NCBI GenBank assembly: GCA_021797355.1 | Contig: JAJZZX010000005.1 | Location: 1-64,000, forward strand | DNA length: 64,000 bases | Origin: Thermoplasmata archaeon | Lineage (GTDB): Archaea; Thermoplasmatota; Thermoplasmata; Thermoplasmatales; Thermoplasmataceae | Direction of reading: 5' to 3' | Shown: in pieces, positions 16,336 through 23,968 of the stretch | Layout: the number at the start of each line of letters is the position of its first letter | Numbering within the stretch: the first letter of the stretch is position 1 | Made by a program: the position numbers and the translations under genes | The notes under the pieces: model-generated | Databases searched by the model: none | What the model was told of the DNA's origin: nothing | Seen by the model: only the letters and a program-made list of their open reading frames with translations

Positions 16336-16563
16336 TCAGTATACACCCTTCGGATCCCAGAATTCTTTCATATTCTTTTTGAAGTCGTGATAGCATTTTT
16401 CAGAACATATATAGATATGATTGCCTCCCTTATATTCACGGCGTTCAGGTGTGCTCCAAGGGACTTCCTCTACCTCATCTAGAAATATCCTATATGCATT
16501 AACAGGTCTGAAGCGCTTAGCACATATTACACAATATACAAAATTAGAGTCCATAAAAATCAA
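16336..16563 (-). CDS. Small treble-clef zinc-finger protein
   Basis: 75 residues (MIFMDSNFVYCVICAKRF...). A CxxC knuckle (C11/C14) pairs with a late CxxxC (ICSEKCYHDFKK), the layout of TRASH/MYM-like treble clefs. Its ATG overlaps the recombinase stop by 4 nt, so it is co-translated with the integrase and may act with it, for example as a directionality or regulatory factor. That role is inference. Confidence 0.6.
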   Translation of the reverse strand: MIFMDSNFVYCVICAKRFRPVNAYRIFLDEVEEVPWSTPERREYKGGNHIYICSEKCYHDFKKNMKEFWDPKGVY

Positions 16564-17534
16564 ATTAGGATAACATCTTTTAATGTTTCCATTGCTGTTC
16601 CATACCAGTGGTCTGCCTGCTGTGTCTTAGCAAGATAGTTTGATGACCCAACAGTTGCAGGTGATCTTCCCTCATAGAAATCTGCTACACTTTCAGGAAC
16701 TCCTGCCATTATAACCTTATTATAGAACCACTTTCTAAAGTATTTGGGTGTTAATCCTGTCTTTATGCCAAACAATTTTGTGATGGCCTTTGCATCCACC
16801 TTGTAGAATCTTCTCACCTTATCAGCCACCTCAATCGGCATATAAACGTAGAAAGACCTCTTCTGACCACGATTGAAGTTAAGTGAATATCTTGCATATG
16901 AACCCTTTCTTGTGAGATTCTGAGGATCATATTCCAAAAGCATCTTGGACATTTCCGTTATTCTAACGCCACTGAATGCAAGAATTTGAAAGAGAAGCTT
17001 GTCCTTGTCATTAGTCAATTTCTCATAAGCCTCATTGATCTTCTCATCAGTCGGTACGTATGTGTCAGGCTTTGATTTCTTGACCTTGAGGACTTTCTTC
17101 AGATGGGTTGCATCTTCTGACGATAACTGCCTTGTCTCCTCAAGATATTTGATGTACAATCGAAGGGCTAGAATGGGGTATTTTGATGTTGTTTTCATTT
17201 TTGAAGTGTACTCTATGATGTTTTGAGGAGATGACAGAATCAGGCCATTAAAGTATTTCGTGAGGTACATCTCAAGGCTCTTGATATAATTCTTATCGTT
17301 TCTGTTAGAGATCAGCCATGCCTTGAAACCATCTGACATCTTTACTACAAGCTCTCTTGTTATCTTTCTTTCGTTGTTGGAAATCGTTGTAAGTTTCCCA
17401 TTCAAAAACTCATCAAGCTTGACATTCATCCACTTGGAAAGATTCAGCCCTTGCTGATTGGCTTTTTCAAGCAGGTCAATGCTAATTCTCACACTCGTGA
17501 TTTTAGTTTCTCCTTGCATGATAATTATTACCAT
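16560..17534 (-). CDS. Tyrosine recombinase (archaeal integrase) with N-terminal ribbon-helix-helix-like segment
   Basis: 324 residues. The C-terminal half has the archaeal integrase layout: R191 in AFSGVRITEM, then LTPKYFRKWF with R267, a GRSPATVGSS segment, and the nucleophile Tyr311 in ADHWY. The His usually preceding the conserved Tyr-Leu of box III is Ser/Asn here (SSNYLA), so activity may be altered. Residues 12-45 (VRISIDLLEKANQQGL, then NLSKWM) resemble a ribbon-helix-helix DNA-binding domain. Met6 (MQGETK) is an alternative start. It lies about 200 nt from a truncated tRNA-Leu gene, the kind of site such enzymes use. Confidence 0.85.
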   Translation of the reverse strand: MVIIIMQGETKITSVRISIDLLEKANQQGLNLSKWMNVKLDEFLNGKLTTISNNERKITRELVVKMSDGFKAWLISNRNDKNYIKSLEMYLTKYFNGLILSSPQNIIEYTSKMKTTSKYPILALRLYIKYLEETRQLSSEDATHLKKVLKVKKSKPDTYVPTDEKINEAYEKLTNDKDKLLFQILAFSGVRITEMSKMLLEYDPQNLTRKGSYARYSLNFNRGQKRSFYVYMPIEVADKVRRFYKVDAKAITKLFGIKTGLTPKYFRKWFYNKVIMAGVPESVADFYEGRSPATVGSSNYLAKTQQADHWYGTAMETLKDVILI

Positions 17535-17786: not shown

Positions 17787-17811
17787 AAAGGCATCCTACA
17801 TTTACGGAGAG

Positions 17812-17820
17812 TATATTAAA
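17812..17820 (-). promoter_or_regulatory. TATA box of the truncated tRNA-Leu gene
   Basis: TTTAATATA on the minus strand, centred about 30 nt upstream of the tRNA 5' end, the normal spacing for archaeal tRNA promoters. Its survival suggests the fragment is the original chromosomal 5' end rather than a random copy. Confidence 0.5.
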
Positions 17821-18242
17821 AGTATTCAAAACTAACGAGTAATGATGATAGACTTTCTCCAATTGTAAGCTCTCGGGTAACTGGTAATAATAATAGCCTC
17901 AAGGATCTTCAACATATAATTGCAAAGAACTGTAAATAAGGCTTGAAGAGAAATTTCGTGGAGCAGTATCGTATCGGAAGAATTGAAAAATCTGACTCCG
18001 CAATTTTTTTAGCAAATACATTAGTTTCAAGGGTTTGATCTATCTTTTCAGCGCTTGAAGGAATTTCACTGAGTATCTTCCTATTCTCATGAGTTATCTT
18101 ATGGACTTTATAACATAATGAGCATTTAGGGAGAGATGCGCCCCTACCTGTGGTGAAAAATAGATATTCTCACACCCGCACAATTTACCCGAAATATTTT
18201 TAATTTGATGGAGAATGCATTACCACAGGATGAGTGGGGATA
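17821..18242. other. Junction region without an intact gene
   Basis: About 420 nt between the tRNA fragment and the core-genome operon. On the minus strand one frame stays open for roughly 80 codons (about 18160 down to 17930; it includes KCSLCYKVHK and ends CSTKFLFKPYLQ) but has no convincing start, so it may be a decayed gene. A TATA-like string (ATATTTTTAA, near 18196) probably serves the downstream plus-strand operon. Confidence 0.4.
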
Positions 18243-18288: not shown

Positions 18289-18441
18289 ATGTTAGCCATA
18301 AAATTAAGGCTTATGATAGGCGGAATTGTGCTTCTCATTGTTGGAGGTACGTTGACCGGCATCAAGGGGTTCCACCCTTACTATCTGGTACTGTTTATAC
18401 TAGGCATTGTAATATTGGCTTACGGGCTCATCAGACCCTGA
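18289..18441 (+). CDS. Very small membrane protein (50 aa)
   Basis: ATG 18289 to TGA 18439-18441. Two hydrophobic helices (MIGGIVLLIVGGTLTGI and YLVLFILGIVILAYGLI) with a basic N-terminus and an HP turn: a helical hairpin. It is shorter than common gene-calling limits and overlaps a spurious longer frame. It is first in a tight plus-strand gene run leading into mevalonate enzymes. No family recognised. Confidence 0.55.
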   Translation: MLAIKLRLMIGGIVLLIVGGTLTGIKGFHPYYLVLFILGIVILAYGLIRP

Positions 18442-18479
18442 GGGCTTCATTCCCTGAAGGAATTGATGAAATAACGTTC

Positions 18480-18656
18480 ATGGCTGTTTCTGCCTTGAAA
18501 CTGCCCAAATTTAATGAAACAATTTACGATAGTGCTTCTAAAGATTCATGGGCCATGATTGAGAACAAACCATGCCAGAAATGCTGCGATGGCAAAAACC
18601 ATCAAGTAATATTGAAGCACTTCAGGTATAATGAATATGGATTTCAGAGAAAATGA
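18480..18656 (+). CDS. Small cysteine-containing protein (58 aa)
   Basis: The frame is open from 18234, but the upstream part reads like non-coding sequence and overlaps the membrane-protein gene, so ATG 18480 is the better start. Residues 32-36 (CQKCC) with nearby His could bind a metal. The 3' end overlaps the next gene by 26 nt. Function unknown; the real extent is uncertain. Confidence 0.4.
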   Translation: MAVSALKLPKFNETIYDSASKDSWAMIENKPCQKCCDGKNHQVILKHFRYNEYGFQRK

Positions 18657-19242
18657 GTTCAGTGCAGTGGATTCCCTGAATATCTCCAGGACGGCAATAA
18701 TACTCCTGAATCCTCAAGAGGGCTTATTCTCTAACATTTTCAGCAAACTTGAATTCTTGAATGCATTCGGGTACCTTAAATGGCTTTCCCACCAAACGGG
18801 AATCCCTGTCATCCAGGTAGATGTTATTCCAGGCATCAACAGGCTAGCAGATTATATAATTATGAAGGAGAGAAGATCTCTACAGAGAGTTGCCCCTAAA
18901 TCTGCTCTCGATAACGGCTTTGTTTCTAGATTTAATGAATTGGTCGGTGATCTCAAGAACAAACTGATAGCGGATTCGCAAGATATTTTCCATTCAAAGG
19001 CAGTGGAAAAGGAACTGCTCTCCGGAAAGTTTGATTTCTTTCTAATTGCTGGATTCCTTATTGACAGGGCTGTTTTGAGGGTTGCACTCTCGTCCTTGGA
19101 ACATGGAATTCTCCCCATAATTGTATCAGATGCCACATCAACATATTCCGAGAGAATTTATTATGAATGCCTGGACGTTATCTCTCAAAGCGCAGAGGTG
19201 ATCGATTCGAGGGATCTTATGAGGAGGTGGCCTGATCAGTGA
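18631..19242 (+). CDS. Isochorismatase-fold (cysteine hydrolase family) protein, probably catalytically inactive
   Basis: 203 residues (Met3 is an alternative start). The order of elements fits the isochorismatase fold: strand AIILLNPQEGLF, a helical middle, LIAGFLIDRAVLRVALSSLE, then PIIVSDATSTYSE. The family's catalytic Asp (normally in an 'IDMQ' strand) is Asn here (LLNPQ), and the nucleophilic Cys ('TDxCV') is Ala (IDRAV), so hydrolysis is unlikely. It overlaps the mevalonate kinase gene by 4 nt (GTGA) and carries that gene's GGAGG ribosome site near its own end. A regulatory or scaffold role for the isoprenoid operon is conceivable but unproven. Confidence 0.65.
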   Translation: MNMDFRENEFSAVDSLNISRTAIILLNPQEGLFSNIFSKLEFLNAFGYLKWLSHQTGIPVIQVDVIPGINRLADYIIMKERRSLQRVAPKSALDNGFVSRFNELVGDLKNKLIADSQDIFHSKAVEKELLSGKFDFFLIAGFLIDRAVLRVALSSLEHGILPIIVSDATSTYSERIYYECLDVISQSAEVIDSRDLMRRWPDQ

Positions 19243-19844
19243 CTGATGAAGGGAAAAAAGCCAGGATTATACTAATTGGCGGAATTCCTGGTGTTGGTAA
19301 AACCAGCATCTCTGGATACATTGCAAAGAAGCTTGGAATCGATATTGTCCTTTCAGCTGACTACCTGAGGGAATTCCTGAGGCCAGTATGCGGCCGGATA
19401 GAAATTCTGAAGAAGAGCGTTTATGATGCCTGGCAATTCTTTGGGGAGGAGAGCAGTGAGACTGTCAGGAAAGGATTCATTGAACAGGGGAGGATCATGA
19501 ATTCGGGAACAGACGCTGTCTTGAAGCGCGCAATAAACAACGGCGAATCACTCATTCTTGAGACACTGTATTTCCTGCCTTCACAACTCAGCCTGGATGT
19601 GTTGAGTGAAATAAAGGCTCTTTACATATACAGTGCGAACAGGGAGACCAATGCCATTAGGCTGCTTGAGAGGCAAAATTACACCCACTTCAATTCACCT
19701 GGCAAGAGGCTGGCAGATCAGCTGGACAGGTACAGGATAATGATGGAATACTCTCTCGAGGAGTGCAGGGCATTTGGAATCAGAACATTTGAGAACAGTG
19801 ATTACGCGATCACAAGAGAACAAATACTCGAATACGTTAGTTAG
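19239..19844 (+). CDS. P-loop kinase, probable mevalonate-3-phosphate 5-kinase
   Basis: 201 residues with Walker A GGIPGVGKTS (14-23) and an LSADYLRE segment as in 2-phosphoglycerate-kinase-like P-loop kinases. In Thermoplasma, mevalonate is phosphorylated first at O3 and then at O5 by a small kinase outside the GHMP family, before decarboxylation. Size, fold and direct linkage to a decarboxylase homologue make this the likely O5 kinase. The start is GTG 19239, with GAGGAGG ending 10 nt upstream, overlapping the previous stop. If the substrate call is wrong, it is still a small-molecule kinase of the same class. Confidence 0.65.
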   Translation: MTDEGKKARIILIGGIPGVGKTSISGYIAKKLGIDIVLSADYLREFLRPVCGRIEILKKSVYDAWQFFGEESSETVRKGFIEQGRIMNSGTDAVLKRAINNGESLILETLYFLPSQLSLDVLSEIKALYIYSANRETNAIRLLERQNYTHFNSPGKRLADQLDRYRIMMEYSLEECRAFGIRTFENSDYAITREQILEYVS

Positions 19845-19853
19845 GCGATAAGC

Positions 19854-20948
19854 GTGTCGGACCCCAGGGAAAGTGGATTGGACATATTTAGAAAGCTCGT
19901 GTCGCTGGGAATATGGCGAGATGTGCCACAGTCATCAGCTGCACTGGAGGATGGCAAGATAGGAGCTGGATTCGGCTTCCCCATAATCGGACTGGAAAAA
20001 TTCCTGGGCTATTTTGATCACCCCTTAAATATAGCCAACTTTCCCTCTATATCATTAACAACTGATTTCAGCAACGCTGTAGCATTCTGTAGATATACGG
20101 AGAAGCCGGCTTCTGATCTTGTAGCTCTCGACGGATCTACTGACAGAAAATATCAAGAGCGAGCCCATAAGGCACTGTCATTTTTCAAGAGCCTCTATGA
20201 TATACCTGGTTCGTTTCATTTCTACATTGTGAGAAGAAGAAAATACAGAAGCGCTAAGGGGCTTGGCGAATCCGCGTCGGTTGCTGCCGCGGTAGCCCGG
20301 TCAGTGGTAAACTGTGCCCTGGAGGGCAAGGCCTCAGAGAGTGATGTTCTTGTTTCCAGGCTTGCCAGGTTGGTTTCAGGTTCTGGCACAAGATCTGCAA
20401 CCGGCGGTGTTTCTCTCTGGCTTTCATACCCATATATTGTTGAAAGCAGATGCCATGCGATCAGGCTGCCCATAGAGCAGGGGAAGATTCATTACGGAAC
20501 ATTTCCTATTCCTTCAGAAATAGCCACTGACGATGCGCATAGGCTTGCAGAATCCTCCCCTTTTTATGGCCGGTGGATGATGGAGAAGTTTGACAGGATG
20601 ATAGAAGATATAGATTCGGGCTTTGATATCGATCTCCTGCTGAAACGGTCCCAGCAGGAAATGTTTACGCTAAATTCTGTAATCCTCTCTACCGGAAATT
20701 TCATACAGACCCCTTCCAGCCTAAGGATAATACAGGACCTGCTTGCATTTTCCAAGAGGAATGAGGGCCTCTATTTCACTGCCGATACCGGCCCAAGCAT
20801 AGTGCTCCTGAGCAGGGACAGGCACCTTATAGAGGAGTTCATTTCGGAACGTGAGGAAAAATTCCTTTGGGGCAACGTCCCGGGAAATCCGCCAGCTATG
20901 AAGGGCCTGGAAAGAGATGCCTTAGACTTTTTCAACAGAAATGGTTAA
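19854..20948 (+). CDS. GHMP-family decarboxylase, probable (R)-mevalonate 3,5-bisphosphate decarboxylase
   Basis: 364 residues, homologous to diphosphomevalonate decarboxylase. The decarboxylase triad appears retained: K49 (LEKFLGY, for the family's KYWGK), R180 in SGSGTRSATGG and D311 in TADTGPS; the phosphate loop is KGLGESAS (135-142). Thermoplasma mevalonate 3-kinase, a close relative, has lost this triad, so a decarboxylase is favoured. Adjacent to the O5 kinase, it would make isopentenyl phosphate, which isopentenyl phosphate kinase (not in this window) turns into IPP for archaeal lipids. GTG start 9 nt after the kinase stop. A classical diphosphomevalonate decarboxylase is the alternative. 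Confidence 0.7.
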   Translation: MSDPRESGLDIFRKLVSLGIWRDVPQSSAALEDGKIGAGFGFPIIGLEKFLGYFDHPLNIANFPSISLTTDFSNAVAFCRYTEKPASDLVALDGSTDRKYQERAHKALSFFKSLYDIPGSFHFYIVRRRKYRSAKGLGESASVAAAVARSVVNCALEGKASESDVLVSRLARLVSGSGTRSATGGVSLWLSYPYIVESRCHAIRLPIEQGKIHYGTFPIPSEIATDDAHRLAESSPFYGRWMMEKFDRMIEDIDSGFDIDLLLKRSQQEMFTLNSVILSTGNFIQTPSSLRIIQDLLAFSKRNEGLYFTADTGPSIVLLSRDRHLIEEFISEREEKFLWGNVPGNPPAMKGLERDALDFFNRNG

Positions 20949-21702
20949 TTCCAGAATTGCAATGGATACCAAGATGTTGGATATCCCTGCACTGAGGGAA
21001 AGTGTCTACAAGGACATCCCCAAGCTCTCTGAGATAAAGATGCTTGATGTTTCACAGATGTTTGGGATCAACTCGGTGGAGGATTTCAGCCCGGATGGGG
21101 ATAAGGAAGGCAAGAGCATATCCTGGCCGACAATATCACGTGCAGTCCTTCTAAGAGATGGTTACAGATGCAGGATATGCGGACGAGGTAACCTGACTCC
21201 CGTTGACAGTTCAAGTGCATATGATAAGGTGCATTTCGATCTAGAGGTTCATCACATCATACCAAGAAAGGACGGTGGATCCGACTCATTCAGAAACCTC
21301 ATAACTCTTTGCAGCAGCTGCCATCACTCCACCTTTTCCAACAGCTATTCAGGCATTCCGGTTAGGGAACAGCCCGATCTTTTTTCCTTTGAAAGAAGGG
21401 TCACCCTCATATTCCCGCCAGACTTTTCCTATTACCATGGAACGACAACAGTCCATGGGATTCTCAGGGATTACAGAAGAGTGTATGACCAGGAAAATCT
21501 CACATACACAATGATTCCTTATAGGGGAAGCAAGCAGCCAGTAACGGGAGCCAGGATTACAATTGAGGAATACAGGAAAGCTGTCTCTGAGATATCGTCT
21601 AGCGTGGAGATAAGCGATTACATAACCATGATGGTGCAGATAGCTGGAAGGGATGAGAAATGCAGATTCCTCCTGGACAGATCAGGGAGGATTCTTGCCT
21701 AG
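20941..21702 (+). CDS. HNH endonuclease-domain protein
   Basis: 253 residues. The HNH domain lies at about 66-130: RDGYRCRICGRGN (C77/C80), EVHHIIPRKDGG (H104/H105), FRNLITLCSSCHH (N119, C124/C127). The C-terminal about 120 residues are unrecognised. It overlaps the decarboxylase gene by 8 nt and so is the last gene of the isoprenoid operon, an odd place for a nuclease. HNH proteins of this kind may be restriction, repair or tRNA-linked enzymes; the substrate cannot be inferred. Its end overlaps the convergent FAD oxidoreductase by 4 nt. Confidence 0.75.
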   Translation: MVNSRIAMDTKMLDIPALRESVYKDIPKLSEIKMLDVSQMFGINSVEDFSPDGDKEGKSISWPTISRAVLLRDGYRCRICGRGNLTPVDSSSAYDKVHFDLEVHHIIPRKDGGSDSFRNLITLCSSCHHSTFSNSYSGIPVREQPDLFSFERRVTLIFPPDFSYYHGTTTVHGILRDYRRVYDQENLTYTMIPYRGSKQPVTGARITIEEYRKAVSEISSSVEISDYITMMVQIAGRDEKCRFLLDRSGRILA

Positions 21703-23015
21703 AGCACCATGCTTTCCATGCCCACATTCCTGCTGTGTATGCCAAGGTCTTCCACAGTAATTTCAGAGCCGTCGAATAGCTTAGCCTTCTCCTTGCCTGA
21801 ATAAAGTGATGCCACAACCCTTCCGATTGCATCTCCTTTAAGTATCCCGCTGCCGCTGGTTCCAGTTCCCACAATTATGTTAAGATCCCTGAAGATGTAC
21901 GGTGTTTTGTCAATTGTATTGTAAGAGTAGTAGCCAGCCCACATCCCTGTCACCTTCTGGTCCTTCAGTGCCGGAAAATAGCAGTTAATTACCTGCGCAA
22001 TGCCATAGTCAAAAAATTCTCTCTCCGGTTCAGGATTCTCAGTAAATGAAAAATCCCTGTTGTAGTCATCTGCTACACCTATCCACAGCGATCTGTATCT
22101 TGGCGCCGGCCTGATATATATTCCATTTTTTGGCAGAATTGTGAATGGCAGGACCCCGTCCGGATTTCTGCTCCACCCGAAGAGCATTTCCTCAACTGCT
22201 TTACCGCCAGTCTGGAATATCTGCCTTTTCTTTGGCCTGATGTGGCTGTCAATCCCTGTTGGGTCGAGAAGCCCGGTTGACCATATATCAGCAGCTGTTA
22301 TGAACTGGCTGGCTGCAAAATCTCCCCTGTTGGTTCTTATTGACCTGAGTGTCTTGTCCTGCCAGAGGAACGGTTCTCCAGGGTAATCGAGAGGATTTAC
22401 GGGCTCCAGATGATATTCAGCAACTGATGTTGAGAAGCTGAATTCCACTCCCTGGTCCACGCACTCCCGGTAGTAGTGTTCAGCCACGAGCTCTGGCTCG
22501 ATGATTCCGCAGTTTTTTCCAATGGCGGCCGATTCCACTTCCGGCAGCCCCATCATTGCCGCAGTTTCTTCATTTGGCTTGAGGTTAAGATATTGGTACG
22601 AGGAAATCTCATCCCTTTCCAGAAATTCTATCTTTGTCTTCCTGGAAAGCTCCTCAAGGGTCTGTTTCCTCGGATCGTCCTTTCCGAGAAGAAACATGTA
22701 GCCGACAGGATTCATCCCGAGGTCTTTCTTGCCGGATCCCTGCACGCTCCTATAGTAAGCTATTGTTGAAGATGACAGGCGGAAATTCACTTCCGAAGAG
22801 AAGAGGTCCCGGTATCCTGCAGCGCTCTTGGCAGTGTTTCCCTGCGCAAAAGTTGGAGCCCTGTCAACTACAAGAACAGTGGAATCAGGATTCTGGGCCT
22901 TGATATGGTATGCTGTTGAGAGGCCGACAATTCCAGCGCCAACTATGATGACATCGTATTTTGCAGAAGGCACGCTACGGTAAGCCTGAGAGGAATTATA
23001 AACTTCGTTGCCCAT
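21699..23015 (-). CDS. FAD-dependent oxidoreductase (DAO / glycine-sarcosine oxidase family)
   Basis: 438 residues from ATG 23015. The frame is open 50 codons further upstream but that part lies inside the cysteine synthase gene and reads as basic nonsense. Near the N-terminus, YDVIIVGAGIVGLSTAYHI is the FAD-binding Rossmann motif, with an acidic strand end (VVDRA). Near the C-terminus, GTGTSGSGILKGDAIG is the second FAD contact typical of the DAO family. The likely substrate is an amino acid or N-methylated amine, not fixed by sequence. It follows the cysteine synthase gene by 14 nt on the same strand. Confidence 0.75.
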   Translation of the reverse strand: MGNEVYNSSQAYRSVPSAKYDVIIVGAGIVGLSTAYHIKAQNPDSTVLVVDRAPTFAQGNTAKSAAGYRDLFSSEVNFRLSSSTIAYYRSVQGSGKKDLGMNPVGYMFLLGKDDPRKQTLEELSRKTKIEFLERDEISSYQYLNLKPNEETAAMMGLPEVESAAIGKNCGIIEPELVAEHYYRECVDQGVEFSFSTSVAEYHLEPVNPLDYPGEPFLWQDKTLRSIRTNRGDFAASQFITAADIWSTGLLDPTGIDSHIRPKKRQIFQTGGKAVEEMLFGWSRNPDGVLPFTILPKNGIYIRPAPRYRSLWIGVADDYNRDFSFTENPEPEREFFDYGIAQVINCYFPALKDQKVTGMWAGYYSYNTIDKTPYIFRDLNIIVGTGTSGSGILKGDAIGRVVASLYSGKEKAKLFDGSEITVEDLGIHSRNVGMESMVL

Positions 23016-23029
23016 TGCACGTGACCTGT

Positions 23030-23968
23030 TCAGCCTGAAAGGTGCCCGGCGTCCTCGAAGAGCTCTGTTGACAGGTACTTGTAACCGCCGTCTGGAAATA
23101 TCGTCACGATATTTTTGCCCTTCCCAAACCGTTCTGCGATTGAAAGTGAAAAGTGTAGGGCGCATGCAGAACTCATTCCAATGAAGAGCCCCTCTTCCCT
23201 GGCCGCCCTGCGTCCTGTCTCAAAGCAGAGAGCCCTTGTCATCTCATCTATCTCCACGAGTTCGTCGATGAGCTCAAGATGGACATTGCTCGATGGATTT
23301 GGTTCTGACGGGTTTCTGATCCCGTCAATCTTGACCCCTGGCTTAGGGGTGATACCAATTATCTTTATGGCAGGGTTGTACTGTTTCAGGCGCATTGCAA
23401 CTCCGGTGCTTGTCCCTCCGGTCCCCACTGTCATGACTGCTGCATCTATCCTCCCGTCCATCTGCCTTATTATTTCCTTTCCAGTTGTTATATAATGAGC
23501 ATATGGATTTGCTGGATCGTGAAACTGGTCCAGTGAGATGTATCTGTCCGGATTCTCCCTGATCATCTTCTCCTTCACCTCAATGGCACCAGCTGTCCCT
23601 TTTGATGCGGGCGTGAGGATGAGATCAGCACCATAGGCACTTATTATCTTGCGCCTCTCAAGGCTGGCCCCCTCGGACATGACTATTGCCACCCGGTATC
23701 CCTTGGCTGCACCCATCATTGCAAGTGCAATGCCAGTGTTTCCTGAGGTTGCCTCTATGATAACCTTGTTACGGTCAAGCCTGCCCGAGACCTCGGCAGC
23801 CTCAATCAGGGAAAGTGCAGCCCTGTCCTTGATGGAACCTCCTATGTTGTACCATTCAAGCTTTGCATAGACTGCAGCCCATTGTGGCTTAACCATCCTC
23901 CTAATCCTGAATAGTGGGGTTTCGCCTATTAGGTCAGTTATGGAATCTATTGGATGCCTGAACCGCAT
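23030..23968 (-). CDS. PLP-dependent cysteine synthase / cystathionine beta-synthase family enzyme
   Basis: 312 residues of fold-type II PLP enzyme. The Schiff-base Lys lies in GGSIKDRAA, the substrate loop is TSGNTG, the phosphate-binding Gly loop is GTGGTSTG, and the C-terminal Ser-containing motif is FPDGGYKY. It lacks CBS domains. It would make cysteine (or cystathionine) from an activated serine and sulfide. It is divergent from a thiosulfate sulfurtransferase gene, so this intergenic region may coordinate sulfur metabolism. Substrate (O-acetylserine, O-phosphoserine or serine) undetermined. Confidence 0.85.
   Translation of the reverse strand: MRFRHPIDSITDLIGETPLFRIRRMVKPQWAAVYAKLEWYNIGGSIKDRAALSLIEAAEVSGRLDRNKVIIEATSGNTGIALAMMGAAKGYRVAIVMSEGASLERRKIISAYGADLILTPASKGTAGAIEVKEKMIRENPDRYISLDQFHDPANPYAHYITTGKEIIRQMDGRIDAAVMTVGTGGTSTGVAMRLKQYNPAIKIIGITPKPGVKIDGIRNPSEPNPSSNVHLELIDELVEIDEMTRALCFETGRRAAREEGLFIGMSSACALHFSLSIAERFGKGKNIVTIFPDGGYKYLSTELFEDAGHLSG

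Follow-up and report, generated by a model that had tools for sequence, protein, structure and literature searches.

Predicted successive steps in the Thermoplasma-type mevalonate route encoded in a conserved four-gene cluster of an uncultured member of the Thermoplasmataceae

Organisation of the locus

The window analysed here is a stretch of 64,000 nucleotides from an uncultured genus of the Thermoplasmataceae (assembly GCA_021797355.1, contig JAJZZX010000005.1, positions 1 to 64,000), and the subject is a cluster of four genes in it, the second and third of which are assigned to two successive steps in the Thermoplasma-type mevalonate route of isoprenoid synthesis. The cluster and its downstream neighbour are laid out as follows.

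18631..19242, + strand: isochorismatase-fold protein gene, 203 aa, first gene of the cluster (PF00857, E = 6e-7)
19239..19844, + strand: mevalonate-3-phosphate 5-kinase gene (assignment supported), 201 aa, GTG start, stop TAG (NF008996 equivalog)
19845..19853, + strand: gap of 9 nt from kinase stop to decarboxylase start (sequence)
19854..20948, + strand: mevalonate 3,5-bisphosphate (bisphosphomevalonate) decarboxylase gene (assignment supported), GHMP fold, 364 aa, GTG start (NF040847, PDB 7t71)
20941..21702, + strand: HNH-domain protein gene, 253 aa, last gene of the cluster (PF01844, E = 5.5e-12)
21699..23165, - strand: FAD-dependent oxidoreductase-like gene, convergent, a conserved neighbour outside the operon (open reading frame and conserved neighbourhood)

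A first-pass annotation of the window had described an isoprenoid operon at 18289-21702, in which a P-loop kinase and a GHMP decarboxylase homologue lay 9 nt apart. The spacing of this pair is confirmed; in addition, there are overlaps of 4 nt between the isochorismatase-like open reading frame (ORF) and that of the kinase, and of 8 nt between the HNH ORF and that of the decarboxylase. The proposed start of the operon is not retained. No recognisable counterpart of the small membrane-protein ORF at 18289 (50 codons) was found in relatives by tblastn, which rules it out as an operon member, and because it is not conserved the boundaries of the conserved cluster are set at 18631-21702. This interval is most likely a single transcription unit, and the one observation that points to co-regulation of the kinase and the decarboxylase is the spacing of their genes.

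Identity of the decarboxylase and the kinase

The product of 19854-20948 scores 401.9 bits against the model for bisphosphomevalonate decarboxylase (NF040847), as opposed to 60.8 bits for phosphomevalonate decarboxylase and 46.3 bits for diphosphomevalonate decarboxylase. Its top sequence match in the PDB is the mevalonate 3,5-bisphosphate decarboxylase of Picrophilus torridus (7t71, E = 4.8e-69). An AlphaFold2 model built from 25 homologues (predicted local distance difference test score, pLDDT, 94.9) also lies nearest to 7t71, with template modelling (TM) scores of 0.91/0.95 and a root mean square deviation of 1.6 A, the next family reaching a TM score of 0.72. The residues that the first-pass annotation had named, Lys49, Arg180 and Asp311, are all present and make up the decarboxylation triad Asp/Lys/Arg. 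All 25 homologues have Lys49 and Asp311, and 23/25 have Arg180, which is lost only in two diverged paralogues from Thermoplasma. The genus Thermoplasma carries a second, unlinked decarboxylase paralogue (L071 5953-7032, in G027; L069 5914-6996, in G009), in which the catalytic Arg is replaced by Lys or Ala.

At a position in the GHMP phosphate loop (the ATP-phosphate loop) that is occupied by Ser in mevalonate diphosphate decarboxylase, all 25 aligned sequences have Glu139. Mevalonate 3,5-bisphosphate decarboxylase has been described as having no ATP-binding residues and no need of ATP (PMC5177888), and the substitution appears to be in keeping with this independence. The identification of the product as mevalonate 3,5-bisphosphate decarboxylase is supported by the family models, by the solved structure of the family and by the remainder of the pathway in the genome.

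The kinase scores 258.5 bits against NF008996, the NCBIfam equivalog for mevalonate-3-phosphate 5-kinase, which passes the cut-off of 250; its second-best family is 2-phosphoglycerate kinase, at 92 bits. It contains the Walker A motif GGIPGVGKTS, the core of which (GG-PGVGK-S) is invariant across 24 homologues. The sequence therefore supports its putative identification as mevalonate-3-phosphate 5-kinase, a P-loop kinase akin to 2-phosphoglycerate kinase.

The rest of the route and its distribution

A search of the genome for a separate mevalonate 3-kinase, as the first-pass annotation had suggested, identified a single one, encoded apart from the cluster (G000:C4:411932-412927), for which the closest solved structure is 4rkp (Ta1305, E = 2.1e-74). 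The sites that hold Lys and Asp in the decarboxylation triad, placed by the motifs YPTIGIILLGG and VTGGSNV, are occupied in it by Leu and Thr, as would be expected for a non-decarboxylating kinase. An isopentenyl phosphate kinase is encoded on G000:C9 (233.9 bits, cut-off 120). Its gene overlaps that of a type 2 isopentenyl diphosphate isomerase by 4 nt (L142 389-2298), forming a second linked pair of late-step genes. Four other GHMP proteins were detected with PF00288, namely homoserine kinase, shikimate kinase and two HddA-like sugar kinases, and none of these four attains the cut-off for mevalonate 5-kinase. Nor was AcnX, the large subunit of phosphomevalonate dehydratase, found in the search of the genome. 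Judged by gene content, this organism appears to have every step of the Thermoplasma-type route from mevalonate onwards.

Across 61 relative genomes of the order, strong matches to all three enzymes of the route are confined to the family to which the window belongs. AcnX is present instead, with strong scores, in 23 of 24 genomes from five other families. At the border of the family, AcnX and the Thermoplasma-type enzymes exclude each other and one mevalonate route is swapped cleanly for another, in agreement with the published distribution (PMC5177888, PMC11052028).

The genome resembles the Thermoplasma-type (variant III) route, represented by mevalonate 3-kinase (M3K, Ta1305), mevalonate-3-phosphate 5-kinase (M3P5K, Ta0762) and bisphosphomevalonate decarboxylase (MBD, Ta0893), in having the three enzymes, an isopentenyl phosphate kinase (IPK) step and no detected phosphomevalonate dehydratase, and in belonging to a family of extreme acidophiles. 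The assignment to the Thermoplasma 3-phosphate route is thereby upheld, with family models, solved structure and remaining pathway genes in agreement. The notion that the operon covers the last steps of the route holds for two of the three route-specific enzymes; the mevalonate 3-kinase lies elsewhere, and the cluster also includes the isochorismatase-fold and HNH genes, for which any relevance to the route would be hypothetical.

Linkage of the kinase and decarboxylase genes

In 15 of the 19 genera sampled from the family, among them Picrophilus, the genes for the kinase and the decarboxylase lie side by side, and because the arrangement recurs so widely it is not attributable to chance. It is the common arrangement in the family, not one special to this genome. 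The pair is apart in g6 (Thermoplasma: Thermoplasma sp. FL, G009, and G027), g10 (Ferroplasma acidarmanus Fer1, G029), g12 and g18. The distance is 474 kb in G027, and in Thermoplasma sp. FL the two genes are on separate contigs. The remark in the first-pass annotation that the genes are not adjacent in Thermoplasma is accordingly correct for that genus, but incomplete as a description of the family. In a Cuniculiplasma record, no kinase gene was found near that for the decarboxylase. When the linked or apart label is mapped on a quick tree with a midpoint root, 5 changes are needed, compared with 18 in shuffles; the label 'apart' is misleading for L102, where a mevalonate 3-kinase-like gene lies between the two. 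This small number of changes fits an ancestral linkage that was lost a few times, and the linkage is probably ancestral, with several losses, among them those in the cultured Thermoplasma, Ferroplasma and Cuniculiplasma.

A close known counterpart is the Picrophilus locus (L057), in which the decarboxylase is nearly identical to 7t71, shares 39% identity with that of the window and has the kinase gene directly upstream. It differs in having an 8-nt overlap between the two genes where the window has a 9-nt gap, and in having neither an isochorismatase-fold nor an HNH gene alongside. No published description of the linkage was found in a search from which the two 2014 discovery papers were absent, and no priority is claimed.

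No Thermoplasmatota stretch around the pair was found to contain the mevalonate 3-kinase. A relative of it does, however, adjoin the pair in seven records labelled Micrarchaeota or Marsarchaeota (L138, L090, L102, L118, L120, L130 and L139), in which the order of the clustered genes varies and the isochorismatase-fold gene is not among them. These include the complete chromosome of Ca. Micrarchaeum A_DKE (L138 4350-7065), which is like the window in the adjacency of kinase and decarboxylase, but unlike it in having the 3-kinase-like gene in the cluster and in that no isochorismatase-fold gene was found in the genome. The 3-kinase-like proteins are diverged, two tested examples scoring 123 to 135 bits against a cut-off of 440, and from these scores their putative function as mevalonate 3-kinases is less sure. 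The route genes of Ca. Micrarchaeum A_DKE have been described as acquired from Thermoplasmatales (PMC8975820), and no mention of their clustering was found in the text consulted.

Genes flanking the pair

Within the family, the pair is accompanied by the isochorismatase-fold and HNH genes, for either of which a role in the pathway would be conjectural. The AlphaFold2 model of the 18631-19242 product (pLDDT 92) is matched by Foldseek to cysteine hydrolases and isochorismatases, with E-values down to 4e-9, and the predicted fold is that of an isochorismatase. In this it is like the isochorismatase-like hydrolases YcaC, PhzD and biuret hydrolase, from which it differs at the catalytic Asp-Lys-Cys triad. 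With positions placed by sequence motif and not by superposition, the Asp is replaced by Asn27 in 25/25 sequences, Cys never occurs at the nucleophile column, and the stretch expected to hold the Lys has no conserved one. The invariant polar residues are Asn27, Lys39, Glu41, Asp192 and Arg194. With Asn in place of the catalytic Asp and no Cys, the protein is a possible pseudoenzyme encoded beside the kinase.

Strong homologues (E<1e-40) are found in nearly all genomes of the family, including those in which the gene is unlinked (Picrophilus, Ferroplasma and E-plasma), while elsewhere in the order there are weak generic matches only. The gene adjoins that of the kinase in 14/19 genera, and is still beside it in Thermoplasma and g12, where the decarboxylase gene has moved away. 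By contrast, it was detected in none of three Micrarchaeota genomes with the route that were searched, and a fourth gave a weak generic match. In one relative, a partial match to the kinase comes after a second isochorismatase-fold gene (G024:C159:9752-10542); this genome has another copy of the kinase, and the arrangement is possibly due to contamination of the assembly.

The HNH protein retains its metal-site residues (CxxC-HH-N-CxxCH), which are invariant in 16 homologues, and its gene adjoins that of the decarboxylase in most of the relatives that possess it. It is nevertheless missing from many route-bearing genomes of the family, while a different family, in which the route is lacking, has diverged homologues of it. 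A place for the HNH gene in the pathway is consequently unsupported.

Upstream of the cluster, a stretch of about 33 bases at 17800-17833 of the window is shared, at 88-91%, with sites in the corresponding upstream region of two relatives (L050 5125-5158; L047 3880-3911). The copy in the window is near a tyrosine-recombinase-like ORF at 16560-17534, and no tRNA was found at this integrase region.

Interpretation

These observations make it highly probable that the cluster is one transcription unit, with its second and third genes encoding enzymes that act in succession in the Thermoplasma-type mevalonate route. This reading draws on the homology of the gene products, their catalytic residues, the pathway genes that the genome contains and the conservation of gene order, from which we infer the substrates, the co-transcription and the co-regulation. 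The separately encoded mevalonate 3-kinase would supply mevalonate 3-phosphate, which the kinase of the cluster would phosphorylate at O5. The decarboxylase, without ATP, would then strip CO2 and the 3-phosphate from mevalonate 3,5-bisphosphate to yield isopentenyl phosphate, and the enzymes of the G000:C9 pair, isopentenyl phosphate kinase and type 2 isomerase, would turn this into isopentenyl diphosphate (IPP) and dimethylallyl diphosphate (DMAPP).

Several results weigh against this reading. The decarboxylase score falls below the curated NCBIfam cut-off of 560 for NF040847, as does that of a relative of the same genus (404.5), whereas the proteins of Picrophilus (562), Thermoplasma (629.7) and Ferroplasma (602.7) all exceed it. 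This cut-off is a narrow one, as the protein nearly identical to the solved Picrophilus enzyme clears it by 2 bits. The mevalonate 3-kinase, at 396.7 bits, is likewise under the cut-off of 440 for NF040848. The genome is 95.6% complete, such that the absences of genes are not absolute. Finally, the convergent FAD-oxidoreductase gene, which is not co-transcribed with the cluster, has been kept about as often as the kinase-decarboxylase pair; gene order within the family is therefore weak evidence of function by itself, and was rejected as proof of it.

The decarboxylase score below the cut-off, together with the GHMP fold and catalytic triad that the protein has in common with diphosphomevalonate decarboxylases and the distant relationship of the kinase to 2-phosphoglycerate kinase, might suggest instead an ATP-dependent decarboxylase of mevalonate 5-phosphate (or 5-diphosphate) next to a 2-phosphoglycerate-type kinase unconnected with isoprenoids. 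This is very improbable, given the several-fold higher score for the bisphosphomevalonate model than for those of the rival families, the Glu139 in the ATP-phosphate loop, a kinase that clears the cut-off of its own equivalog, and a genome that encodes a mevalonate 3-kinase and in which no protein attains the mevalonate 5-kinase cut-off. A less drastic objection is that the pair merely belongs to a conserved block of chromosome and has no regulatory meaning. The conservation of the neighbourhood does reach past the operon to the convergent gene, and several lineages have split the pair while retaining the route. However, the two genes are on the same strand, separated by 9 nt or overlapping in most genomes, and Micrarchaeota still have them together, with a mevalonate 3-kinase-like gene added and none of the other neighbours present. 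This explanation is accordingly held to be rather unlikely, although it is the most credible of the alternatives.

It could also be supposed that all four genes constitute a single pathway module, with the isochorismatase-fold protein, perhaps joined by the HNH protein, acting as regulator or scaffold of both enzymes or handling a side product. The overlaps between genes in the cluster would favour this, as would the company that the isochorismatase-fold gene keeps with the kinase gene, its near ubiquity in the family even where unlinked, and its staying with the kinase in the two genera where the decarboxylase was relocated. Set against this are the clustered route genes of Micrarchaeota, which do without it, the patchy occurrence of the HNH gene and the equal retention of the convergent gene; the restriction to one family may moreover reflect a single evolutionary event. 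A module of this kind is unlikely. The narrower proposal, in which the isochorismatase-fold protein has a so far unrecognised part in the isoprenoid synthesis of the family, for instance as a regulator or partner of mevalonate-3-phosphate 5-kinase, is similarly unlikely.

Biological significance

The pathway itself, an unusual one that leads to membrane lipids, is already established, and the window is a further case of a known route, the finding being that this acidophile-specific form of the mevalonate pathway extends to an uncultured genus. The only new and testable lead to come from the cluster is the family-wide pseudo-isochorismatase, a possible one on present evidence, encoded beside the kinase.

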